This document shows positions 1 through 10,946 of a stretch of 10,946 nt of DNA, piece by piece. Position 1 is the first letter of the stretch. Each line of letters begins with the position of its first letter. The position numbers were made by a program, and so were the translations under genes. Below the pieces are notes generated by a model. That model worked only from the letters and a program-made list of their open reading frames with translations, ran no database searches and was not told the DNA's origin. This DNA is from a bacterium (GTDB taxonomy: Bacteria > JAMCPX01), in contig JAJYJX010000079.1 of the NCBI GenBank assembly GCA_021789095.1, forward strand, positions 1-10,946, written 5' to 3'.

Positions 1-138
1 CCGGACTATCTCAAGGGGCTGCCGCAGTACCCAAAGCAGGGACAGCGCCCCATTTTCTCAATGGAAGTTCCGAATGACAAGGATAATTACTCTTTAAATG
101 AAAATAGGGCGCTGTCCCTATCGAGGCTATCGAGGTGA
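1..138 (+). CDS. C-terminal tail of an unidentified upstream gene (5' end outside window)
   Basis: Frame 1 is open from the first base to a TGA at 136-138, giving 45 residues that begin PDYLKGLPQYPKQ. No start is needed inside the window, so this would be the end of a gene that begins to the left. From about residue 13 on, the frame passes through the inverted repeat at 38-119, so the last 30 or so residues are probably a tail added or replaced when the repeat arrived. The TGA overlaps a possible GTG start of the next kinase (GTGA at 135-138), which is the arrangement of translationally coupled genes. I do not recognise the protein. An open frame of 45 codons can occur by chance, so confidence is low. 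Confidence 0.35.
   Translation, partial: PDYLKGLPQYPKQGQRPIFSMEVPNDKDNYSLNENRALSLSRLSR
38..119. repeat. Short inverted-repeat element (MITE- or REP-like)
   Basis: Arms at 38-57 and 100-119 are inverted copies of about 20 bp with one mismatch. The left arm reads agggacagcgccccatttt and the right arm is its reverse complement with T for C at one position. The 42 bp between them are AT-rich and code for nothing recognisable. Each arm also has a small internal GGG...CCC symmetry. Termini of the form GGGACAG...ATTTT resemble the repeats scattered around IS200/RAYT-type (Y1) transposases in many proteobacterial genomes; that resemblance is from memory. No transposase lies in the window. The element sits immediately before the kinase start and could form a hairpin in the mRNA. 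Confidence 0.7.
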
Positions 139-140
139 AG

Positions 141-1586
141 ATGCCTGACACCACATTACAATCATGGCTCCACACCCAGCTCTTCGAGCAGGTCTCCTGT
201 AAGATCGCAATAATTGACAGGAACCTGAAAATCGTAGAGCATAACCGGAGTTTTCAGGAGCTTTTCGGACAGGGCCTTGGACGGCCTTGTTACGAGATTT
301 ACAAGAAAAAGAAACAACCATGTGATCAATGCACAGCGGCATTGACATTTGCAGACAGTAAAATCCGCATTAATGAAGAAGTCGGGCTTGATCGTAATGG
401 CAGAACCGCTCATTATCTTGTCCACATGGTGCCTATCACAAAAGAAAATGGCGAAGTCACCTATATAGTTGAAATGTCAACGGACATAACTGAAATTAAA
501 CGCCTGCAGCAGGAGTACCAGACATTGTTTGATAAGGTACCATGCTATATTGCAGTCCTTAACCGTGATTTCAAGGTTGTGCGTGCTAACAGCTTTATGC
601 AAAAGACGTTTGGTTCGACCACAAGCCAGTATTGCTGGGAATTGTTTAAACACCGCGATGAAAAATGTGAAAACTGTCCGGCAGACCTTGCCTTTGCTGA
701 CAACGATACGCACACGGGTGAGCAGATCGGCCTTAATAAGGAAGGGAAGGAAATCAGGTATGCGGTGACCGCATACCCCCTTACCGGCGGAAACTTTGTA
801 AATCATGTAATAGAGATGGCTGTTGATGTTACAAAGGTTTATCAATTAGAGCAGGAAAAGATAGAGGCAGAGCGCCTGGCAGCAGTGGGACAGACTGTAG
901 CCGGACTTGCACACGGGATCAAAAACATCCTGACCGGACTGGAAGGCGGGGTGTACATTTTCAAATCCGGTCTGGACAGAAATGACCGGGACCGCATAGA
1001 TCAAGGCTGGGATGTACTGCACCGGAATATTGATAAAATTTCCATGCTGGCTAAAAACCTGCTCAATTTCTCCAAAGGGATAGTACCAAAAGTAAAGATG
1101 ATCAGACCTGCTGACATGGTGCATGAGGTAATTGAACTATACAAGGAAACCGCTCGCAAATATAACATAGAACTTGTAACCGAATGTGATGAGTCTATTG
1201 CTCCAGCACCCATGGACCCTGAAGGTATCCATACCTGTCTTGCAAATCTAATGTCCAATGCCATTGATGCCTGCCAGTTGAGCGATAAACCGGTTTGCGA
1301 GGTCCGTGTAAGGTGTAAAGAAGAGGATGAATGCATTGTATTTGAGGTTGAAGACAAGGGATGCGGCATGGACTACGAGGTCAAACAGAAGGTGTTTACC
1401 AATTTTTTTACAACGAAAGGAGGAGGAGGAACAGGCATCGGCCTTCTTCTCACCCGGAAGATGGTTCAGGAACATGGAGGCCGCATCACAATGGAATCTG
1501 TGCCGGGTCAAGGCTCTCTTTTCAGGATGGTTTTTCCCAGAAAAAGACTGCCCCTGCTTTCTGCTGAGACAGAAAAGGAGGAATAA
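141..1586 (+). CDS. PAS-PAS sensor histidine kinase with two C-x10-C-x2-C clusters
   Basis: A cytoplasmic-looking sensor kinase of 481 residues with no signal peptide or membrane helix. PAS 1 spans about 16-118 and PAS 2 about 125-235. Each holds the same cysteine pattern: C50-x10-C61-x2-C64 and C165-x10-C176-x2-C179. The dimerisation/phospho-acceptor helix follows, with His258 in LAHGIKNILTGLEGG; the usual acidic residue after His is replaced by Gly. The ATPase part is canonical: N box at 369-378 (NLMSNAIDAC), G1 at 405-410 (DKGCGM) and G2 at 427-435 (GGGGTGIGL). The ATG at 141 was chosen because GAGGTGA (132-138) is a good ribosome binding site; a GTG at 135 would add two residues and overlap the upstream stop. 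The next gene starts 3 bases after the stop, so both form one operon. Its PAS 2 and kinase core clearly match the kinase at 3144-4235. The cysteines suggest metal, Fe-S or thiol redox sensing, which is inference. Confidence 0.93.
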   Translation: MPDTTLQSWLHTQLFEQVSCKIAIIDRNLKIVEHNRSFQELFGQGLGRPCYEIYKKKKQPCDQCTAALTFADSKIRINEEVGLDRNGRTAHYLVHMVPITKENGEVTYIVEMSTDITEIKRLQQEYQTLFDKVPCYIAVLNRDFKVVRANSFMQKTFGSTTSQYCWELFKHRDEKCENCPADLAFADNDTHTGEQIGLNKEGKEIRYAVTAYPLTGGNFVNHVIEMAVDVTKVYQLEQEKIEAERLAAVGQTVAGLAHGIKNILTGLEGGVYIFKSGLDRNDRDRIDQGWDVLHRNIDKISMLAKNLLNFSKGIVPKVKMIRPADMVHEVIELYKETARKYNIELVTECDESIAPAPMDPEGIHTCLANLMSNAIDACQLSDKPVCEVRVRCKEEDECIVFEVEDKGCGMDYEVKQKVFTNFFTTKGGGGTGIGLLLTRKMVQEHGGRITMESVPGQGSLFRMVFPRKRLPLLSAETEKEE

Positions 1587-1589
1587 GAT

Positions 1590-2123
1590 ATGGTTAAACC
1601 GCAAGATATGACAATCCTGGTTGTTGATGACGAGCCGGATATCATTATTTACTTAAGGACATTGCTTGAAGATGCTGGTTTCAAGGTGATGACCGCTTCC
1701 GATGGAGAAGAGGCACTGGAGAAAATCAAGGAACGCAAGCCCGATCTCATCTCCTTAGACCTCATCATGCCAAGAAAAAGCGGCATCCGGTGTTATTACG
1801 AGCTCCGTAAAAACAAAGAATGGTCAAAAATTAAGGTAATCATCGTGACTGCTCATGCACGGGATGACAAAGTAAGAAAGGAAATGGACGAACTGTTCTC
1901 TGGAGCAACAATCTCAGGACCTCAAATGTATCTGGAAAAGCCGGTTCACCCTCAGGACTATGTTAATTTAATTAAACGTGAATTAGGAATTGAGCTTACC
2001 GAACAAATTGAGGTTCCCCGGGGCCCGGAAGGTCTACGTGAGGAGGTAAAGAAGTTACTGGATAGAGCAGACAAAGAAACCCTGGATGCCGCCATGAGGT
2101 TCCTAAAAGAAAGAAAGAAATAA
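1590..2123 (+). CDS. Single-domain response regulator with helical tail
   Basis: A CheY-like receiver (about residues 8-132) followed by a charged, helical tail to residue 177 without a recognisable output domain. All phosphorylation residues are present: acidic pocket D13-D14-E15, acceptor D57 in SLDLIMP, T87, and K117 in EKPV. The Thr-to-Lys distance is 30 residues, against 22 in CheY, so the alpha4-beta5 region carries an insertion. AAGGAGG at 1575-1581, inside the end of the kinase gene, is a strong ribosome binding site 8 bases before the ATG. The upstream kinase is the obvious phosphodonor. The regulator must act by protein contact or as a relay, because no DNA-binding or enzymatic domain is visible. 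Confidence 0.93.
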   Translation: MVKPQDMTILVVDDEPDIIIYLRTLLEDAGFKVMTASDGEEALEKIKERKPDLISLDLIMPRKSGIRCYYELRKNKEWSKIKVIIVTAHARDDKVRKEMDELFSGATISGPQMYLEKPVHPQDYVNLIKRELGIELTEQIEVPRGPEGLREEVKKLLDRADKETLDAAMRFLKERKK

Positions 2124-2145
2124 CAAAAATAAGAGTCTGGGCATC

Positions 2146-2154
2146 TGCTATAAT
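2146..2154 (+). promoter_or_regulatory. Extended -10 promoter candidate before the second response regulator
   Basis: TGCTATAAT at 2146-2154 is a perfect TATAAT hexamer with the TGn extension, lying in the 58-base gap between the two response regulator genes. I see no good -35 at the right distance, but extended -10 promoters can work without one. It would let the second regulator and the Rrf2 gene be expressed apart from the kinase. It rests on one motif only. Confidence 0.4.
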
Positions 2155-2181
2155 TTGTCCAGGCCCTAAAGGAGAACAAGC

Positions 2182-2628
2182 ATGAATGATGTTGTAAAAA
2201 AAAGGTTTTTGGTAATAGATGATGATAGCGATGTACTGGCCTATCTTTCCACATGGCTTGCGGATCACGACTTTATTGTTGATATTGCACATGATGGTAT
2301 AGAAGCTACTGCCAAACTTAAGGAGCATAGGCCCGATCTTATTACCCTGGATATAATAATGCCGAATGAAACCGGCATTAAGTTTTATCGTGAAATCAAG
2401 AAAGATCCACAATACGCATCTGTCCCTGTGATTATCATAACAGGCATAATGACCGAGTTTGAGGATTTTATTTCCCACAGACGCACTGTCCCGCCGCCGG
2501 ATGGTTATATATCAAAACCTTTTAAAGAAGAGGAATTGAGCAATACTATAAAAGAGGTGCTGGAGATGAAAAAATCAAAGAATGGAAAATTAAAACTAAT
2601 TACCGGATCAACCTCTGCAAAATGTTGA
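2182..2628 (+). CDS. Single-domain response regulator
   Basis: A receiver domain of 148 residues with a short Lys-rich tail ending in Cys. It keeps the acidic pocket D13-D14-D15, acceptor D57 in TLDIIMP, T87 in IIITGI, and K112 in SKPF. AAAGGAG at 2168-2174 lies 7 bases before the ATG. There is no output domain. The sequence around D57 and T87 (TLDI-MP--TGIK-Y, VPVIIITGI) is closer to the receiver fused to the HdrD-like protein at 4232-5986 than to its neighbour at 1590, which points to a common origin or shared partner. The Thr-Lys distance of 25 is slightly longer than the 22 of CheY. It may compete for phosphate from either PAS kinase in the window or act as a phosphate sink; that is inference. 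Confidence 0.92.
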   Translation: MNDVVKKRFLVIDDDSDVLAYLSTWLADHDFIVDIAHDGIEATAKLKEHRPDLITLDIIMPNETGIKFYREIKKDPQYASVPVIIITGIMTEFEDFISHRRTVPPPDGYISKPFKEEELSNTIKEVLEMKKSKNGKLKLITGSTSAKC

Positions 2629-2629
2629 A

Positions 2630-2655
2630 AAACTCATGGACATTTCATAGAGTTT
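2630..2655. repeat. Imperfect inverted repeat upstream of the Rrf2 gene
   Basis: AAACTCATG at 2630-2638 pairs with CATaGAGTTT at 2646-2655, with one bulged A and a loop of 7. It begins just past the stop of the response regulator and ends 25 bases before the Rrf2 start. It could be a weak hairpin in the mRNA or an operator for autoregulation, which is common among Rrf2 proteins. There is no run of T after it, so I do not call it an intrinsic terminator. Confidence 0.35.
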
Positions 2656-2680
2656 ATTTAATAAGGAGCATTATGAACCT

Positions 2681-3118
2681 ATGAAAATTACAACTATTTG
2701 CAGATATGGAATAAGAGCAATGATTGAATTAGCAAGGAACTATGGAGATAATCCTGTTGCTTTAAAAGCTATAGCAAACAAAGAAGAGATTTCAAGAAAA
2801 TATCTTGACCATATAATGAGCCGTTTGAAAACCGCAGGACTTGTCCGGGTAACAAGAGGTGTTAACGGTGGTTTTGTATTGGCCCACCCGCCTTCTGAGA
2901 TAACACTGAGCAATATATTCCGTGTACTCGAAGGTGATCCCTCTATTGTTGAATGTGTTAACAATCCGGATGTATGCAAACGGTCCAGGAACTGCACTGC
3001 AAGAGAAATATGGATAGATATGACGGTTATGATTGAAGAGTTTCTTGAATCAAGAACATTGCAGGACATCATAAATTATAAAAGGATCAAACATAAAAAG
3101 CCTGCTAGGATTAAATAG
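2681..3118 (+). CDS. Rrf2-family transcriptional regulator with Fe-S-type cysteine triad
   Basis: A winged-helix DNA-binding protein of 145 residues. The start MKITTICRYGIRAMIELA and the later YLDHIMSRLK...GLVRVTRGVNGGFVLA (about 41-68) are characteristic of the Rrf2 family, which includes IscR, NsrR and RsrR. The three cysteines C92-x6-C99-x5-C105 lie where those members bind a 2Fe-2S or 4Fe-4S cluster, so a redox, nitric oxide or Fe-S sensing role is likely. The family predicts the fold and cluster; the targets are unknown. AAGGAG at 2663-2668 is 12 bases from the ATG, rather far, and is nearer to a three-codon frame at 2673-2684 whose stop overlaps the Rrf2 start. It is the only clear DNA-binding protein among the blocks flanking the cytochrome b/HdrD genes, and so the natural candidate to control them. 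Confidence 0.94.
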   Translation: MKITTICRYGIRAMIELARNYGDNPVALKAIANKEEISRKYLDHIMSRLKTAGLVRVTRGVNGGFVLAHPPSEITLSNIFRVLEGDPSIVECVNNPDVCKRSRNCTAREIWIDMTVMIEEFLESRTLQDIINYKRIKHKKPARIK

Positions 3119-3143: not shown

Positions 3144-4235
3144 TTATGCCTTTTTAGGTAATCTGACTATAAATGTAGTACCCTTTTTAAAAGTGGAGTC
3201 AATGGTTATGCTTGCCCCGTGTTCTTTGGCAATCTTATAGGCTACAAAAAGCCCGAGCCCGGTGCCCGATGTCGGCTTTGTTGTATATATATCCGAGAAA
3301 AGATGTGCTTTTGTTTCTTCATCCATGCCGGTTCCATTGTCGGATACTTCAAAAATAACTTCTGCGGCTGTATTTTTTAGGGCGACGCCAATAGTATGGG
3401 ATTGTTTATCTTCATCCATGAGACAGGCATCAATGGCATTCTCTATTAAACTTACTAAAAGCAGATATAAGCTCTTTGGATCAGCAGGGATCTCTGTCGT
3501 ATCAGAGTCTACCTGTCTGGAAAACGTTATGCCCCTTAGCTGTGCCTTTGTGTGGAAGAGATCGAATACATCATCAACAACCTTTGCCGGTAATAATTGT
3601 ATTTTCTGCGGTGTTCTGTCTTTTGCACAATACAGGATTTCCATTACCATGTTTGATATTCTTTCCACGTTTCTCTGTACCATGCCCCATCCCTTTTTTA
3701 CAATATCATCGTTTTCCCTTGTAAAGCCGGAATTGACGACATAGATCCCGCCCTCTAATCCGGTAACTATGCTCTTTATGCTGTGGGAGATACTCGCTAC
3801 AAGCATGCCGAGATGGCTGAGTTGAGCCTGCAGTTTCTTCACCTCGGTTATATTTGTGGACATTTCCATTACTTCCTTGATATGGTTTTCACGATCCTTT
3901 ATTGGCGTTGTATATACAACTACGTTTATTGTTTCTCCGCGCTGAGACTGTACAATTTCCTCGCTTGAGTGGACCATGCCGTCTTCAAACGTCATAGCAA
4001 CGGGGCATATCTGACATCTGTCCTTCCTGTGCTTATAGCTTACAAAACATGAATGTCCGATGCCCTCGCCAAAATCTTCCCTGAACCGCCTGTTTACCTG
4101 TTTTATGATAAAGCTTGAATCTTGCACAGAGATATAGCATGGCACCTCATCAAAGAGCTTCCTGTAGTCAATATTTTCAGGATAGAGGCGCATATATGGT
4201 GTGATAACTTTACTTGTCACAGATTGGCTGCTCAT
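3144..4235 (-). CDS. PAS sensor histidine kinase with C-x10-C-x2-C cluster
   Basis: A soluble kinase of 363 residues. One PAS domain (about 23-133) carries C63-x10-C74-x2-C77 plus C33 in VPCYI, the same places as in PAS 2 of the kinase at 141-1586. The phospho-acceptor helix has His151 in SISHSIKSIVTGLEGG; the usual acidic residue after His is Ser. The ATPase domain keeps the N box at 262-271 (SLIENAIDAC), G1 at 299-304 (DNGTGM) and G2 at 324-329 (GTGLGL). Its ATG overlaps the TGA of the HdrD-receiver gene (ATGA at 4232-4235) and has no clear ribosome binding site of its own, so it is probably translated by coupling. The fused receiver just upstream is the likely partner. It ends 25 bases from the convergent Rrf2 gene. 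Confidence 0.93.
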   Translation of the reverse strand: MSSQSVTSKVITPYMRLYPENIDYRKLFDEVPCYISVQDSSFIIKQVNRRFREDFGEGIGHSCFVSYKHRKDRCQICPVAMTFEDGMVHSSEEIVQSQRGETINVVVYTTPIKDRENHIKEVMEMSTNITEVKKLQAQLSHLGMLVASISHSIKSIVTGLEGGIYVVNSGFTRENDDIVKKGWGMVQRNVERISNMVMEILYCAKDRTPQKIQLLPAKVVDDVFDLFHTKAQLRGITFSRQVDSDTTEIPADPKSLYLLLVSLIENAIDACLMDEDKQSHTIGVALKNTAAEVIFEVSDNGTGMDEETKAHLFSDIYTTKPTSGTGLGLFVAYKIAKEHGASITIDSTFKKGTTFIVRLPKKA

Positions 4236-5986
4236 GCATCTTTTACTGCCGTTTGCTTATGTGCAAAGATTTTACCAACAGTAATGAGAAGCTGCTCTTT
4301 GTTAACAGGTTTTTCGATGAATCCTTCAGGATGGGGCAAAGAACGTTCATATATGAATTTTCTGAAGTCTATTTGCGGATAATCCACAGGGTTAATGCCT
4401 GTTATTATAATCACTGGTATGTTAAGCAGTTCTTTCTTGCTTCTCAATTCGTGGTATAACTTTATGCCTGTCTTACCGGGCATAAGAATATCAAGTGTAA
4501 TCATATCAGGGTGTTCTGATAGAATTTTGTTCATTGCTTCGTCCACGCTGAAAGCAGACAATGTTTTATAGCCATGATCCTCAAAAAGTGTTGTAAGGTA
4601 TGTGACAATATCAGGTTCGTCATCTATGACAAGAATCCTCTCTCCACTGCCTCTGATAATTTCTTCTGCAGCTACAACCTTTAATGGAATTCTTTTCTCT
4701 ATTATCATAGCTTCAGAGACCAATTCACTTACAACTTTAACATTCATATTCAGTTTATAGTATTTAATCAAATCTGAAAGTGCATCAACACAGTTATGAC
4801 AGGCAGTCACAACGATCTGCGCTCCTGTTGCCTTAAGCTGCTCCGCCTTCATTTTAGCCACCTCAAGCCTTCGGGGCGTGTATTCCGACATTGACATGGC
4901 ACCTCCACCTCCGCTGCAGCACCAATTATCAGCCCTATTAGGATACATCTCCCTGTAGTCCATGACGGATTGTCTGAGTAAAAACCTCGGTTCTTCTGTT
5001 ATGCCTGAGCTTCTCGCCAGGTTGCATGGATCATGGTAGGTCACACTTTCCTTATTAACAGAAGAATTCAATCTTATCCTGCCTTCTTTTATATATCTTG
5101 TCATTGTTTCAAGGAAGCTTTCTATCGGAAACTTTAAGTCCATTTTTGCCCAATTAGGTGCCTCCCATTTTGTTGCCCTGAAACCATGCCCGCATTCAGA
5201 AACAACAAGTTTTCTGCCTCCAAGTTCATAGACCTTGTCAAATTGCCTTTTGCCCATTAATGCCCCAAGCACATCATCACCTGCAAAAAGGCCGAAGTTT
5301 GTATTGTCCCAGCCCTCGCTTGTCATGGTCCAGTTTTCCCCTGCAGCATAAAAGATCCTTGCCGCAGCAAGCAGGGAAAGCGGGGCATATTTTACTTCCC
5401 TTGGATTTATTGTATACACAACATTTGCGTTCTTCTTATCAATAGGTATTTTAGCACCCCTGTCGCCTGTAGCTGTTTGCAGTTCCTCGCTTAGCCATTC
5501 TATGGTCTCAAGGTAATCTTCTTTGGTAACAGCCATCTGGTTGCCTGTTTCATACTGCGCTTTACACACATCCTTTACACCTTGTGGCGCTTTACCTACA
5601 GATGTAAGAAGTGAACGGCCGATCCTTACAAGCATCGCTGTATCAACACCCATGGGGCAGTTAAGTGTGCACCTGCGGCACATTGTGCAGCTTCCGTATA
5701 AAGCGTCCATAAGCATATCCAGATCTTTATCATCCTTTAATGGTTTGGCCCCTACCCATCCGGGAACAATACGGCCTGTCCAGTCAATATAATATTTATA
5801 AAGTTTTCTTAATTGGTCCACTTTGTAAGCAGGCGCCATTTTAGGATCTTTTGTAGCAGCATAATAATGACAGGTATCCGTGCACATACCACAGTGAACG
5901 CATACGCCGAAGGATATCGCTGCCTGCCTGCTTATCTTTTTCTTTAAAAGTTCAATGACCTTTTGAACATTTTCTGTATTGTTCAT
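4232..5986 (-). CDS. HdrD/TmcB-like Fe-S oxidoreductase fused to a receiver domain
   Basis: A fusion protein of 584 residues. The N-terminal part has two 4Fe-4S ferredoxin motifs, C29-x2-C32-x2-C35-x3-C39 and C100-x2-C103-x2-C106-x3-C110-P. A CCG region follows: in the first copy only C265 (ECGHG) is kept, and the second is complete with C321, C356-C357 (WCCSGGGGAM) and C396-x2-C399. This is the build of HdrD-like subunits such as TmcB, which pass electrons between a membrane cytochrome b and a soluble partner. After about residue 430, a full CheY-like receiver follows (about 448-575) with D455-D456-E457, acceptor D499 in TLDILMP, T529 and K559. Nothing at the junction looks like a separate start or ribosome binding site. 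GGAGG lies 7 bases before the ATG. Both ends overlap neighbours by ATGA. A receiver on this family is outside the family members I know. Either phosphorylation controls electron transfer, or the Fe-S part informs the receiver; which one is unknown. Confidence 0.93.
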   Translation of the reverse strand: MNNTENVQKVIELLKKKISRQAAISFGVCVHCGMCTDTCHYYAATKDPKMAPAYKVDQLRKLYKYYIDWTGRIVPGWVGAKPLKDDKDLDMLMDALYGSCTMCRRCTLNCPMGVDTAMLVRIGRSLLTSVGKAPQGVKDVCKAQYETGNQMAVTKEDYLETIEWLSEELQTATGDRGAKIPIDKKNANVVYTINPREVKYAPLSLLAAARIFYAAGENWTMTSEGWDNTNFGLFAGDDVLGALMGKRQFDKVYELGGRKLVVSECGHGFRATKWEAPNWAKMDLKFPIESFLETMTRYIKEGRIRLNSSVNKESVTYHDPCNLARSSGITEEPRFLLRQSVMDYREMYPNRADNWCCSGGGGAMSMSEYTPRRLEVAKMKAEQLKATGAQIVVTACHNCVDALSDLIKYYKLNMNVKVVSELVSEAMIIEKRIPLKVVAAEEIIRGSGERILVIDDEPDIVTYLTTLFEDHGYKTLSAFSVDEAMNKILSEHPDMITLDILMPGKTGIKLYHELRSKKELLNIPVIIITGINPVDYPQIDFRKFIYERSLPHPEGFIEKPVNKEQLLITVGKIFAHKQTAVKDA

Positions 5987-6657
5987 TTTGCTGCCTCCAT
6001 ATTTTTTTCTCCAACTTTTGGATATACACCTCTTCTTCCAAAATGCCTTCCGAAGTACACCCTAGCAAAGGGATAGTACAGGTAGTGTGATATCTTACTG
6101 AACGGGACGAATATAAGGAAGAAGGCTGTCATAATGAAAAATGATATTAAAGCAGTGTAATCCTTATTAGGAATGCCGAAGAATGCAGTTAACAGCCAGA
6201 CGTCAAGAACAATAAGAGAAAAATAATCGTCCATACTGCTTATAAGTCTGAGATCAGGCATGATAGATCTTTTTATCAGTCTTACTGCGCCTGCGATAAA
6301 TGCAAACCCCGTTATTCCCTGAAAAAGATACATAACAGATTCTATAGTAAAGAGCTTAGGTGCATAAGGTATTATAAAAGATGCGGCTATGGCCGCTGTC
6401 ACACCAAGATGAAATATCACAAACTCAAAGTACCTTAAAGGATGTTTCAGCATGCTTTCCATAGTCCACGGCATAGCTATAGAAAGTAGAGATAATCTTG
6501 CACCTTTTTGCGGATCACCTTTTGCAGGAGTTATTTCTTTTACAAGATTTTTCTTAAATATCCAGCGAAGTTTCAGAGCGTACACCAGAGCCATTACTGA
6601 CAGAGCGACTATCTGGGCTTCATTTTCCATAAATCTCAAAATAGAACCGCTTCCCAT
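5983..6657 (-). CDS. NarI/TmcC-like membrane cytochrome b subunit
   Basis: An integral membrane protein of 224 residues with five hydrophobic helices at about 12-31, 76-97, 106-127, 145-161 and 168-188. The C-terminal stretch PFSKISHYLYYPFARVYFGR, followed by a short HFGRRG segment, is typical of the nitrate reductase gamma family, which includes TmcC, HmcE and DsrM. H72, H83, H191 and H205 are candidate ligands of two b hemes; NarI uses two His pairs in its second and fifth helices. Such proteins exchange electrons with the menaquinone pool and with an HdrD-type partner, here encoded by the next gene with an ATGA overlap. AAGGAGG at 6662-6668 is a strong ribosome binding site. It is the first gene of the operon. 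No cytochrome c or nitrate reductase catalytic subunit is present nearby, so the final electron donor or acceptor is unknown. Confidence 0.9.
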   Translation of the reverse strand: MGSGSILRFMENEAQIVALSVMALVYALKLRWIFKKNLVKEITPAKGDPQKGARLSLLSIAMPWTMESMLKHPLRYFEFVIFHLGVTAAIAASFIIPYAPKLFTIESVMYLFQGITGFAFIAGAVRLIKRSIMPDLRLISSMDDYFSLIVLDVWLLTAFFGIPNKDYTALISFFIMTAFFLIFVPFSKISHYLYYPFARVYFGRHFGRRGVYPKVGEKNMEAAK

Positions 6658-6741: not shown

Positions 6742-6766
6742 AAAAAAGGGGTTTTTACTGGTCCCC
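6742..6766 (-). terminator. Weak intrinsic terminator candidate after the SulP gene
   Basis: On the minus strand GGGG (6763-6766) can pair with CCCC (6748-6751) across an 11-base loop that contains the SulP stop codon, and TTTTTT (6742-6747) follows directly. Only four G-C pairs form, so the hairpin is weak, but the position at the end of the transporter operon and just before the next promoter is right. Confidence 0.4.
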
Positions 6767-8956
6767 GTCTGTTTGAGGGCCTTTCGTTATGATAGGTTTG
6801 CGTTTTACATCCGGTGCGACAGCCAGGCCTTTGAAGCACACCTTTATCAACGGACATTCCTTTTCCGGGGAGTTCACGTGGGCCTGTACGTGGATTCTCT
6901 CTATGGCAAATGCCACATTGCGGAACAGGTGGTCCTCGCCTATCTTTTCGTATAAATGCGTACGTCTCATTACGTCCAAAACAGAATCATTCAACCCGCT
7001 GATAGAAATATCATATCCTGCCTCGCGTAATCTGGTCGTAAGCAAGGAAAGCATTTCTTCGCCCGAGGCATCGAGTTCATTAATGGCATTGGCTACAATC
7101 AAAATGTGTTTCAGCTCCGGCATGGAGGATACGGCGTTAAGTACCTTTTCTTCAAGATAGTTTACATTTGAAAAGAAAAGAGAGCGATTAAATCTGATCA
7201 CAGCTATATGCCTGCACTGTTCCAGGTTGAATCGTGCAGCATTCCTATAGGTACCGTCAGCATATTTCGACAGCAGTGCTATATCAGGGCTCATTGTCCT
7301 TAAAAGAAACAAAACCAGTGACAGTGCAACTCCTATCATTATGCCGATATCAAGATTGGGTGCAAATACAAGTGTGCAAACAAATGTGATTACAGCTATA
7401 GCCCCGTCATATTTCTGCGCCTGCCATGCATGGATAAAACTTTTTATATTTAAAAGATTTACAACCGCCATCATAATAATAGCTGCCAGTACTGACTGGG
7501 GAAGGTAATACAGCAAAGGAGTAAAGAACAGCAGTGTAACCATGACGATACAGCTTGTGAATACGCTTGATATGCCGGTCATAGCACCTGCCTGCAGGTT
7601 AACTGCGGAACGGGAGAATGAGCCTGATACAGCATAGCTCTGGCTGAAAGATGCAATGATATTTCCAAATCCCTGGCCTATTAATTCTTGATTCGGGTCA
7701 AGCCGCTGTCCTGTTTTTGCTGCCATTGCTTTGGCAATGGAGATCGCTTCCATAAAGCCGATAAGGGAAATAATAGCAGCAATGGGTAGAAGGTTCAAAG
7801 CAATTCCCAGATTAATCTGCGGTATCTTAAAACCCGGCAGGCCATGCGGTATGTTGCCAACAACAGCACCGCTGCCAACAAGCAGAATAGAAGCCTCGTC
7901 CATACGGCTGTCACCTATCTTTAGCTTCCATTTCATTCCTCTGCTATGCAACCCTGCCGGCAGGGTTCCCTGAACATAAAAAATCTGCTTTTTATCTTCC
8001 AGTATTACTGCCGCAAACTTTAACTTTCGCAGTTCAGATCTGTATACCTTTAGCTTATTTTTTAGTTCTTCAATTTTAAGATTTAATAATACCAATTGAT
8101 GCTGCAGTTCCATGACCTCGGAGGAATGCTGTCCGAATTGCTTTTCTGCTTTTGTTATAGCATTATTCAAAGGTATTCTTGACCTGGCTCCTTCCTCGAT
8201 CTGATCAAAAGCAGCGTTAAAATTGTTGATAAGCATTTTTACATCCGGAGAAGCAATCTGTTCAATCTTGCACTTGTAATTATGCTCAAATCCTATTGCC
8301 CACGAAATCAGAGTAGTAAGTACTACTGCAATGAGTACATTGGGAATCCTTGGATTTATACGTCTCAAGCTTATCATGATGATAAAAGCCAGCAATGCAA
8401 ATCCAAGAGTAAGCAAATGTGTGGATACCATTGCGGCCTTTAATATATTATAAACGGTTTCGTATTGATGATGTCCGCTCTCGGCCTCTACGCCGAATAT
8501 ACTCCCGAGCTGGGATGAGGCAATAATAATTGCAGCAGCATTTGTAAAGCCATTTACAACAGGATGTGACAGAAAATTGACGACCAGGCCCAGTTTAAAC
8601 ATACCGAGGAGTAACTGAAAAATACCGACAATCAGAGCGATAAGAATCGCATAGGCAATAAAAGCCTGGCTGCCGGCCGTTGCCAGTGGTTCAAGCGCGG
8701 CTGCACTCATAAGCGAAACCACGGCAACCGGACCTGTGGCAAGCTGATTGCTTGAGCCGAACAGCGCTGCAACCAAAGGAGGCAAGAATGCAGCATACAA
8801 GCCGTAATAAACAGGCAGCCCGGCAAGTTTGGCATAGGCCATTGACTGGGGAATCAGCACCAGTGCCACTGTTACACCAGAAGTCAAATCTGCGCGAAAC
8901 GAGGAAACGGTATAATTCTTAAACCATCTGAGGAATGGAAATAATCTTGTTAACAT
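6755..8956 (-). CDS. SulP-family anion transporter with large inserted domain and C-terminal STAS domain
   Basis: An inner-membrane anion transporter (sulfate, bicarbonate or similar) of 733 residues; most bacterial SulP proteins have about 550-600. The N-terminus is typical, with PQSMAYAKLAGLPVYYGLYA at about 36-55 and ATGPVAVVSLM soon after. The second half has GFMEAISIAKAMAAKTG and then SGSFSRSAVN. A STAS domain covers about 566-686, with the conserved D629 and S631 loop (ELDASGEE). Between the helix ending near 224 and IPHGLPGFKIP near 369, where the family normally has a short loop, lies an extra segment of about 140 residues with a long charged heptad-like helix (about 265-312) and then a strand-rich part. 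A tail of some 45 residues follows STAS. The ATG at 8956 fits the family N-terminus and has TAGGTG 9 bases upstream; a GTG at 8968 would add four residues. It lies 60 bases after the CBS gene, probably in the same operon. The substrate cannot be told. Confidence 0.92.
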   Translation of the reverse strand: MLTRLFPFLRWFKNYTVSSFRADLTSGVTVALVLIPQSMAYAKLAGLPVYYGLYAAFLPPLVAALFGSSNQLATGPVAVVSLMSAAALEPLATAGSQAFIAYAILIALIVGIFQLLLGMFKLGLVVNFLSHPVVNGFTNAAAIIIASSQLGSIFGVEAESGHHQYETVYNILKAAMVSTHLLTLGFALLAFIIMISLRRINPRIPNVLIAVVLTTLISWAIGFEHNYKCKIEQIASPDVKMLINNFNAAFDQIEEGARSRIPLNNAITKAEKQFGQHSSEVMELQHQLVLLNLKIEELKNKLKVYRSELRKLKFAAVILEDKKQIFYVQGTLPAGLHSRGMKWKLKIGDSRMDEASILLVGSGAVVGNIPHGLPGFKIPQINLGIALNLLPIAAIISLIGFMEAISIAKAMAAKTGQRLDPNQELIGQGFGNIIASFSQSYAVSGSFSRSAVNLQAGAMTGISSVFTSCIVMVTLLFFTPLLYYLPQSVLAAIIMMAVVNLLNIKSFIHAWQAQKYDGAIAVITFVCTLVFAPNLDIGIMIGVALSLVLFLLRTMSPDIALLSKYADGTYRNAARFNLEQCRHIAVIRFNRSLFFSNVNYLEEKVLNAVSSMPELKHILIVANAINELDASGEEMLSLLTTRLREAGYDISISGLNDSVLDVMRRTHLYEKIGEDHLFRNVAFAIERIHVQAHVNSPEKECPLIKVCFKGLAVAPDVKRKPIITKGPQTDGDQ

Positions 8957-9016
8957 AAAAAACTGCACCTACCTATCTGTCTGGAAGGATTTTTTCTGTA
9001 AAAGTGAAAACCATTA

Positions 9017-9544
9017 TTAATCCAGCAAAAGTTTTGCCACTTCATGGAAGACGTCTTCACTGCGTACAACACCAACTACCTGGTTATTCTTCAATACCGG
9101 GACAACGCTTATATTATTATCTACCATTTCATAAATGACTTTTATGATATAGTCCTCGTAATCCGCGGTAACTTTTATGAGTCTCATGACATCGCTTACA
9201 GGCCGCTTCACCCTTTCCTCGATGCTTTTCATAAGTTTATCCAGGGATATTTGTTTAAGATCCGGGTTGGATTTTACATCGAACATTTTTTTCCGTTCAT
9301 CTATAAGCAATGTTGATAGAAAATCCGGCTCGAGTCCCCTGAGGATGTCCCTGCGCCTGACTGTACCGAGCAGCTGGTATTTTTCGTCAAACACCAGCAG
9401 TACCCTCGGCGGACATTTTTTGCCGCCTATCTCAAACTCTGCATGCTCCATCTCTGCCATTGCCTGGCGCAAGGTAAACCAATAAGGTATATGCGGATAC
9501 TTATCCAGGGAAACCATAATTTCTCCTGCACGCTTTATCTCCAT
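9017..9544 (-). CDS. CBS-pair domain protein
   Basis: A soluble protein of 175 residues with two CBS domains, about 5-70 (ending LLVFDEKYQLLGTVRRRDIL) and about 115-172 (ending VVPVLKNNQVVGVVRSEDVF). They are separated by a charged linker of about 45 residues that is longer than in compact CBS pairs. CBS pairs bind adenosine nucleotides such as AMP, ATP or SAM and report energy or metabolite state. There is no fused enzyme or transporter domain, so it probably acts in trans, perhaps on the SulP transporter encoded next. AGGAAAGGAG just before the ATG is a strong ribosome binding site and overlaps the stop of the response regulator gene, with a 15-base spacing between the genes. The ligand is unknown. 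Confidence 0.9.
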   Translation of the reverse strand: MEIKRAGEIMVSLDKYPHIPYWFTLRQAMAEMEHAEFEIGGKKCPPRVLLVFDEKYQLLGTVRRRDILRGLEPDFLSTLLIDERKKMFDVKSNPDLKQISLDKLMKSIEERVKRPVSDVMRLIKVTADYEDYIIKVIYEMVDNNISVVPVLKNNQVVGVVRSEDVFHEVAKLLLD

Positions 9545-9559
9545 ACCTTTACTCCTTTC

Positions 9560-10120
9560 CTAATTTTTGGAACTATTTATTGCCGAAGTAATAACATTCT
9601 CCGGTATGCCTGTTAGCTGTGACATTTGCTTGGTATCGGCACCTGTTCTTTTTGACAGCCTGAGTATGTATTCTTTTTCAAAGGCACTGCATGCCCTCTC
9701 ATAAGGCTCCAGTTCAAATATGGCTGTAAGGTGTTTTATATCCCTTTTCATGTTCTGCCATTTAATGGCCCTGTCCACGGTAAATATGATCTGCTCTTTT
9801 TTAAAAGGCTTGGTTATGTAATCCAGGACGCCAAGGGACAGTGCTTCAATAGCCGATTCAAGTGAACCGAATGCAGTGATTATGATTACCTCCTCCTCCC
9901 GCTTTTGCTCCTTGACCATCCGCAGGATGTCCATGCCGTCCATGCCCGGCATTTTCAGGTCCGCTACTACCAGATCAAAGTTGTTTTGCTCGAGCAATTT
10001 GGGCACCTCAAGAGAATTGTTGCTCGTTAAAATTGTGTACTGCGTCTTTTCCTTCATGATCCGTTCAAGCAGTACCAGCATATGGGGCTCATCATCTATT
10101 GCCAGTATATTGTATTTCAT
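9560..10120 (-). CDS. NtrC-type response regulator lacking AAA+ domain, with Fis-like tail
   Basis: A response regulator of 186 residues. The receiver (about 1-125) has D9-D10-E11, acceptor D54 in VVADLKMPGMDG, T82 in ITAFGS and K104 in TKPF, with the normal 22-residue Thr-Lys distance. The order resembles NtrC/AtoC receivers, but the sigma-54-activating AAA+ domain is absent. The C-terminal 50 residues (AFEKEYILRLSKRTG...MSQLTGIPENVITSAI) follow the pattern of a Fis-type helix-turn-helix, so DNA binding is possible; the fit is loose. The start ATG overlaps the TGA of the kinase gene (ATGA at 10117-10120) and is preceded by AAAGGAG. The kinase upstream is the expected phosphodonor. Confidence 0.92.
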   Translation of the reverse strand: MKYNILAIDDEPHMLVLLERIMKEKTQYTILTSNNSLEVPKLLEQNNFDLVVADLKMPGMDGMDILRMVKEQKREEEVIIITAFGSLESAIEALSLGVLDYITKPFKKEQIIFTVDRAIKWQNMKRDIKHLTAIFELEPYERACSAFEKEYILRLSKRTGADTKQMSQLTGIPENVITSAINSSKN

Positions 10121-10946
10121 ACTTTGCTCTCCTTTCCGGTCTTTTCAGCCGCAGGTGTTGGCATGGAAACGGTGAATGTTGTCCCGTTTTTTTGTTCAGG
10201 ATGATCCTCTGCAGAGATGCTCGAAAAGCTTATCTTCCCTCCATACTTTTTGACTATACCGTAACAGAGAGATAACCCAAGCCCTGTGCCTTCGCCCACC
10301 TTTTTCGTGGTAAAGAAAGGATCAAAGACCCTTGGCTTGATCTTGTCGGGAATCCCGCTGCCCGTGTCAGAAACGCTCAGATGCACCCAGCCATTTTCCA
10401 TTTGTGAGGTTAGTGTAATTGCGCCTTCCTTATCTTCCATTGCTGCCACTGAATTATTGATCAGATTGAATATTACCTGTTGAAACTCCCTGCTATCACC
10501 GCGTACCCTTGGCAGTCCTTCAGACAGGTCTAAAACTATGTTTATTTTCTTTGTCATAAGGGTATTTTTAACAATGTTTACAACAGTATTAATACAGTAA
10601 TTGATATCAACGGTATCCTCAAGGCCCTCCGTGATTCTGGCAAACCCGAGCAGGTGTTCCACGATCTTTTTTGCCTGGGTTGCGTGCTGTTCTATGATTT
10701 TCAGGTCCTCGGATTCCTGTGTTCCATCTTTAAACTTTTCTTTAAGGAGGTCGGTAAATCCAAGTATAATGGACATGGGGTTATTGATCTCATGTGCAAC
10801 GCCTGCTGCAAGGGTGCCTATGGAGGCAAGCTTTTCCGTGTTGTAGATGCGGTGTTCCAACTCCATTTTCTCGGTTATATCCTTTATGATAGCAGTGCTA
10901 CCGATACTCGTGCCGTCCTTTGCCCGAACCAATGTACGGGAAATAT
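10117..10946 (-). CDS. Sensor histidine kinase, N-terminus outside window
   Basis: The C-terminal 276 residues of a histidine kinase; the frame is open to the edge of the window, so the start lies beyond it. Residues at the edge (VRAKDGTSIGSTAIIKDITE) are the end of a PAS/PAC domain. The phospho-acceptor box is canonical, GVAHEINNPMSIILG, unlike the two PAS kinases elsewhere in the window. The ATPase core has NLINNSVAAM (N box), DTGSGI (G1), FDPFFTTK (F box) and GEGTGLGL (G2). It overlaps the response regulator by ATGA and should be its partner. What it senses cannot be seen, because any sensing domains are off the edge. A TTG at 10930-10932 would be an artificial start. Confidence 0.93.
   Translation of the reverse strand, partial: ISRTLVRAKDGTSIGSTAIIKDITEKMELEHRIYNTEKLASIGTLAAGVAHEINNPMSIILGFTDLLKEKFKDGTQESEDLKIIEQHATQAKKIVEHLLGFARITEGLEDTVDINYCINTVVNIVKNTLMTKKINIVLDLSEGLPRVRGDSREFQQVIFNLINNSVAAMEDKEGAITLTSQMENGWVHLSVSDTGSGIPDKIKPRVFDPFFTTKKVGEGTGLGLSLCYGIVKKYGGKISFSSISAEDHPEQKNGTTFTVSMPTPAAEKTGKESKV

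Follow-up and report, generated by a model that had tools for sequence, protein, structure and literature searches.

What is a receiver domain, the phosphate-accepting half of a two-component system, doing at the end of what looks like a respiratory electron carrier? The window, by which we mean the whole stretch of DNA analysed, is an entire contig of 10,946 bases from a metagenome-assembled bacterial genome (2.15 Mb, 92% complete, 203 contigs). On its minus strand, at 4232–5986, one uninterrupted frame with an ATG start encodes a 584-residue protein composed of an HdrD-like iron-sulfur part and a C-terminal receiver; the plus strand of the same interval contains many stops. A sequence-only reading of this DNA had recognized an HdrD/TmcB-type carrier joined to a complete receiver, and every residue it listed was recovered by Pfam and inspection of the sequence. 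It had missed the strand, the operon that adds a cognate kinase and a membrane subunit, the association with dissimilatory sulfite reduction and the occurrence, next to true TmcB, of a distinct gene for a receiver of this family. Its remark that no such protein had been characterized agrees with the literature searched, where no description of the architecture was found, most subscription journals lying outside its coverage.

The HmcF/TmcB/DsrK-like part spans residues 5–435 (4682–5974; all features of this gene lie on the minus strand) and is assigned from NCBIfam scores below the curated cut-offs, given further on, and from its fold. It contains two 4Fe-4S motifs, C29-X2-C-X2-C-X3-C39 (C29, C32, C35 and C39; 5870–5902) and C100-X2-C-X2-C-X3-C110 (C100, C103, C106 and C110; 5657–5689), and a CCG domain with one full cysteine set, C321, C356-C357, C396 and C399 (4790–5026), which together place it in the HdrD/CCG iron-sulfur superfamily. 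C265 is the single cysteine of a degenerate first CCG repeat. A flexible linker of low predicted confidence (about residues 436–448; 4643–4681) leads into the receiver at residues 449–575 (4262–4642), which has the acidic residues D455-D456-E457, the predicted phosphoacceptor D499 (codon 4490–4492), T529 and K559. Pfam matches to Fer4_8 (residues 29–114, 43.5 bits), CCG (315–400, 46.2 bits) and Response_reg (451–567, 63.9 bits against a cut-off of 30.2) all exceed the curated thresholds. The best NCBIfam receiver model is that of DVU0259 (NF045717), although the window receiver, at 93.4 bits, stays below its cut-off of 160. Structure prediction gave a mean pLDDT of 86.5 and a pTM of 0.70, with residues 433–441 below 50, and Foldseek matched the first part to EtfD of M. 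smegmatis and to HdrB subunits and the second to ordinary receivers.

The fusion is widespread. A first survey of 60 genomes returned one clear full-length fusion, G014, 53% identical over residues 6–574, whose phylum comprises four genomes, too few for statistics. A second fusion, G060, has the gene order of the window and a longer, repeat-rich linker. Scanning species genomes then yielded 68 close loci, all from metagenome-assembled genomes. With the window and G014 counted, 65 loci hold a full-length gene, fused in 52 and unfused in 13. The 51 further fused loci, at 52–60% identity, again derive from metagenome-assembled genomes only and represent 12 or more named phyla: Acidobacteriota, Zixiibacteriota, Thermodesulfobacteriota, Myxococcota, Ignavibacteriota, Bacteroidota, Planctomycetota, Electryoneota, Gemmatimonadota, Elusimicrobiota, Calditrichota and Hydrogenedentota. 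Among 118 genomes sampled from Zixiibacteriota, the phylum of locus L042, 38 gave a match at 1e-100, about 28 fused and about 10 unfused as judged by match extent; in the Syntrophaceae-type family of locus L079, 6 of 21 genomes match and five of these carry full-length fusions. The database check that the sequence-only reading had proposed, of architecture, spread and neighbours, turned up a broad distribution and, as described below, a conserved operon. The same reading had allowed for homologues that always occur as two proteins, which is not the case, most being fused and some relatives unfused, and for a sequencing or assembly error at about 4650–4720. That region is the interdomain linker (about residues 431–448), and the join is not an error because 51 independent loci share it. 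No encoded relative was found among viral contigs, and no plasmid match was obtained.

Two relatives depart from the common form. In L086 (2980–4822) two overlapping frames take the place of the fusion; they are either separate genes or the product of a frameshift, and in the trees this locus falls within fused relatives. In the Chloroflexota relative L097 (6959–8620), a DsrC-like domain (Pfam, 63 bits) occupies the slot of the receiver and lacks both C-terminal redox cysteines.

Conservation extends across both halves of the protein. All 14 cysteines named above are present in 50 of 50 aligned fusions. Within the receiver pocket, D456, D499 and K559 are likewise invariant (50/50), D455 and E457 are found in 49 of 50, and position 529 is always threonine or serine (50/50). 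With the cysteine set and the receiver pocket invariant or nearly so, both functions have been kept in one chain. The DVU0259 receiver model matches every one of the 50 fusions (E up to 1e-10), and linker length ranges between 11 and 71 residues among homologues.

The fused gene belongs to a conserved operon. A macro-domain gene, where present, comes first; the NarI-like membrane subunit and the fusion are next, followed by a soluble PAS histidine kinase and a stand-alone receiver. In the window the fused gene overlaps both neighbours by four nucleotides (ATGA): the membrane-subunit gene upstream (5983–6657, minus strand) and the kinase gene downstream (3144–4235, minus strand). Scans for promoters (11 promoter-like sites, 12.2 expected) and terminators (8 terminator-like sites, 3.7 expected, mostly within coding regions) were uninformative. 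The 224-residue membrane subunit is HmcE/TmcC-like and of the NarI type (NCBIfam HmcE 46 bits and TmcC 42 bits, below cut-off). In each of the 65 loci that have a full-length HDR gene, it is encoded immediately upstream and in the same orientation, and its His91 and His199, invariant in 70 of 70 sequences, are likely haem ligands. The macro-domain gene, of the ADP-ribose-binding type, is a cluster member in 38 loci (for example L060, 5706–6242, and L088, 799–1329) and is absent from the window.

The kinase (363 residues; Pfam HATPase_c, 77 bits) is soluble so far as its domains show. The phospho-His, His151, is present in 47 of 47 homologues, and the ATP-site residues are invariant as well. 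A kinase gene lies downstream in 48 of 51 fused loci compared to 3 of 11 unfused relatives (Fisher p = 7e-6); its presence therefore tracks that of the receiver, which supports the kinase as partner of the receiver. Four cysteines of the kinase PAS domain, C33-X29-C63-X10-C74-X2-C77 in window numbering, are near-invariant (46/47) and may form a cluster- or metal-binding sensor; they are reminiscent of the 4Fe-4S sensor NreB. PAS domains with this C-X29-C-X10-C-X2-C pattern occur in the kinases at 3144–4235 and at 135–1586.

In most loci the kinase is followed by a stand-alone receiver. What the window has in its place is a divergent kinase–receiver–receiver–Rrf2 set on the plus strand (135–3118). 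It consists of another PAS-PAS histidine kinase of this type (135–1586; Pfam), a receiver protein (1590–2123; Pfam and residue comparison), a stand-alone receiver of the DVU0259-like group (2182–2628; Pfam, NCBIfam and receiver tree) and an Rrf2-family regulator (2681–3118; Pfam Rrf2, 128 bits). The receiver protein at 1590–2123 and the fused receiver agree at five kinase-facing positions, with D, I, Y, L and L in both. We take these positions to correspond to the HK853–RR468 interface, by analogy with which they were assigned. Across loci, similarity of the kinase-facing residues is weakly higher for receivers of the same locus (0.50) than for cross-locus pairs (0.41). Rrf2 genes cluster with the module in 10 of 70 loci, and a gene combining an HTH_17 DNA-binding domain with a degenerate receiver-like domain lies upstream of it in 15 (for example L064, 525–1388). 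On the far side of the operon, the window encodes a SulP transporter (6755–8968), whose match is split into two stretches by an insertion of about 125 residues that is partly coiled-coil-like. Upstream of SulP, a CBS protein, a receiver protein and a histidine kinase (9017–10944) make up another two-component set.

Genomes carrying the fusion tend to encode dissimilatory sulfite reduction. The window genome has dsrAB elsewhere, together with a dsrN-dsrC-dsrM-dsrK set, and both DsrC cysteines are present. Since a true DsrK (754 bits) and a DsrM (432 bits) are thereby already encoded, along with a separate Hmc-like set on another contig, the fusion and its membrane subunit represent an additional pair. 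dsrA was found in 39 of 46 fusion genomes (36 of 43, plus three more) compared to 4 of 50 genomes that lack the fusion and belong to families other than that of the window; the seven fusion genomes in which it was not found may be incomplete. Within one bacterial family, dsrA is present in 5 of 6 genomes with the fusion versus 3 of 15 without (one-sided hypergeometric p ~0.014), and in all five of those members the two genes share a contig, some 6 kb apart. In Syntrophaceae-type genomes the module is located inside the dsr cluster, between dsrC and dsrMK. Locus L060 has, on one strand, dsrA, dsrB, dsrD, dsrN, dsrC, macro-domain gene, membrane subunit, fusion, kinase, receiver, dsrM and dsrK. 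Within the flanks covered, dsr genes adjoin the module in 8 of 53 loci, most loci having none next to it, and a DsrC gene lies near several unfused relatives. Six of the eight other members of the window's family carry dsrA without a match at the level of the fusion, so the module is not needed for Dsr.

Together, the context favours phosphorylation gating electron flow over the redox state of the clusters controlling the receiver, the two options named in the sequence-only reading. In sulfate reducers, DsrMK reduce the DsrC trisulfide (PMC6018796). Judged from sequence, conservation and context, the module may be a DsrMK/HdrDE-like pair under two-component control, in which phosphorylation of the receiver by the adjacent kinase would tune how electrons move between the quinone pool and a thiol protein resembling DsrC; we give this reading an even chance. 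The NarI-type subunit would exchange electrons with the menaquinone pool, and the HdrD-like part would relay them via its pair of 4Fe-4S clusters to the CCG cluster; there a protein thiol or disulfide, most likely that of DsrC, could dock and be reduced (or oxidized). The soluble PAS kinase would sense the cytosolic redox or sulfur state and phosphorylate Asp499 of the tethered receiver. This in turn could make the CCG site more or less accessible, or alter how the fusion couples with its membrane partner, thereby switching electron flow without new transcription. Against this reading, the stand-alone receivers are equally good targets for the kinase, kinase-facing residues of same-locus receivers are only weakly more alike than those of cross-locus pairs, and dsrA is missing from some fusion genomes, dsr genes adjoin few of the loci and Dsr does not need the module. 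The predicted structure, with its low-confidence linker and pTM of 0.70, does not fix the place of the receiver.

Control could also run in reverse, with the HdrD-like part serving as a redox sensor: the cluster state, set by the quinone pool or DsrC, would alter phosphorylation or dephosphorylation of the receiver, and the signal would leave through the kinase, the stand-alone receiver and nearby Rrf2 or HTH regulators. We consider this whole chain, sensing and exit taken jointly, unlikely though worth weighing. Stand-alone receivers, Rrf2 genes and the HTH-plus-receiver-like genes do cluster with the module, the DsrC-like domain that replaces the receiver in the Chloroflexota relative looks regulatory, and in D. 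vulgaris rrf1 and rrf2 adjoin hmcF and regulate expression of hmc (PMC10924467). However, a full cluster set with a conserved membrane partner resembles a working electron-transfer pair, the stand-alone receivers have no DNA-binding domain, and the kinase already has a conserved four-cysteine PAS domain of its own for sensing. Less probable still is that the receiver gates nothing and acts as a docking or assembly module, or as a phosphate sink, keeping the kinase attached to the membrane complex. A long, variable linker would suit such a role, as would those relatives that have lost the receiver and keep the electron-transfer part and membrane partner, but the retention of the phosphorylation residues across the aligned fusions is stricter than simple docking requires. 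An assembly join or frameshift merging two genes, suggested by the metagenomic origin of every source genome and by the split form in L086, is ruled out for practical purposes by the 52 loci and by additional full-length fusions in separately searched genomes, which include long contigs and one sequence labelled a chromosome.

The trees bear on how the fusion arose. In the electron-carrier tree, the window protein groups with fusions from Bacteroidota and Ignavibacteriota among the deepest fused branches; relatives without the fusion make up a single side clade, with further cases nested elsewhere. The receiver tree unites the fused receivers with three stand-alone ones, including that of the split L086, and separates this group from the remaining stand-alone receivers, though with modest support (81). 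Most simply, the fusion arose once, long ago, and was later lost in places and transferred widely among phyla; independent fusions are possible. No match at the fusion level was found among relatives from the window's own family, which fits gene transfer; binning of metagenome-assembled genomes may misplace some contigs.

Two-component systems are usually thought to act on respiration through transcription. A fusion encoded beside its likely kinase suggests that signalling can switch respiratory electron flow directly, the switch being part of the electron carrier itself. That such phosphorylation-gated flow in dissimilatory sulfur respiration, through an attached receiver, operates from this operon in at least 12 phyla, and by extension that two-component genes beside tmc and hmc have a post-translational role, we hold as slightly short of an even proposition. 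The fusion also hints at what the receivers next to tmc and hmc do in cultivable sulfate reducers. With NF045717 named for DVU0259 and rrf1 located by hmcF, the question is testable in Desulfovibrio vulgaris. Its broad distribution among uncultured lineages that carry dsr genes implies that a common point at which sulfite and sulfide turnover is controlled has been overlooked.

Among known systems, EtfD, the ETF:menaquinone oxidoreductase of M. smegmatis, carries its membrane domain in the same chain and takes its electrons from ETF. It is the closest solved structure by sequence and fold (9ojn) and, unlike the window protein, has no receiver. The TmcB/TmcC pair of the sulfate-reducer transmembrane complex, an iron-sulfur subunit with a membrane anchor, is homologous to the window pair; there the DVU0259-family receiver is a separate neighbouring gene, whereas in the window it is fused. 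Presumably, DVU0258–0260 lie in the same way beside tmc in D. vulgaris. In Desulfamplus (locus L114), a true TmcB (826 bits) and, 0.5 kb downstream, a true DVU0259-family receiver (190 bits) are encoded by separate genes, and the fusion therefore links two parts that occur there as nearby genes. The window protein scores 290.8 bits against TmcB (NF045724; cut-off 735), and no TmcA-type multihaem cytochrome c is present among the annotated window genes. HmcF of the D. vulgaris hmc operon is the best-scoring carrier model (NF045711; 309.2 bits, cut-off 750). Both systems have a membrane partner and an Rrf2 gene, but the receiver accompanying HmcF (Rrf1) is separate and that of the window covalently joined. 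The sole adjacent hmc-type gene in the window is the HmcE-like one, with its 46 bits against a cut-off of 275, and HmcA–D are missing. DsrK and DsrM of the DsrMKJOP complex share with the window pair two 4Fe-4S motifs, one CCG set and a NarI-like membrane partner (for the DsrK architecture, see PMC10504309), and the fusion module is embedded in dsr clusters of some genomes; DsrJOP, however, are missing from the window operon, and the match to DsrK (NF045796) reaches 254.4 bits with a cut-off of 400. Because all three curated cut-offs are failed, the fusion is a variant and not a member of the TmcB, HmcF or DsrK families. That its parts occur as neighbours is established; no paper searched describes them joined in one protein, the breadth of that architecture or its location within dsr clusters.
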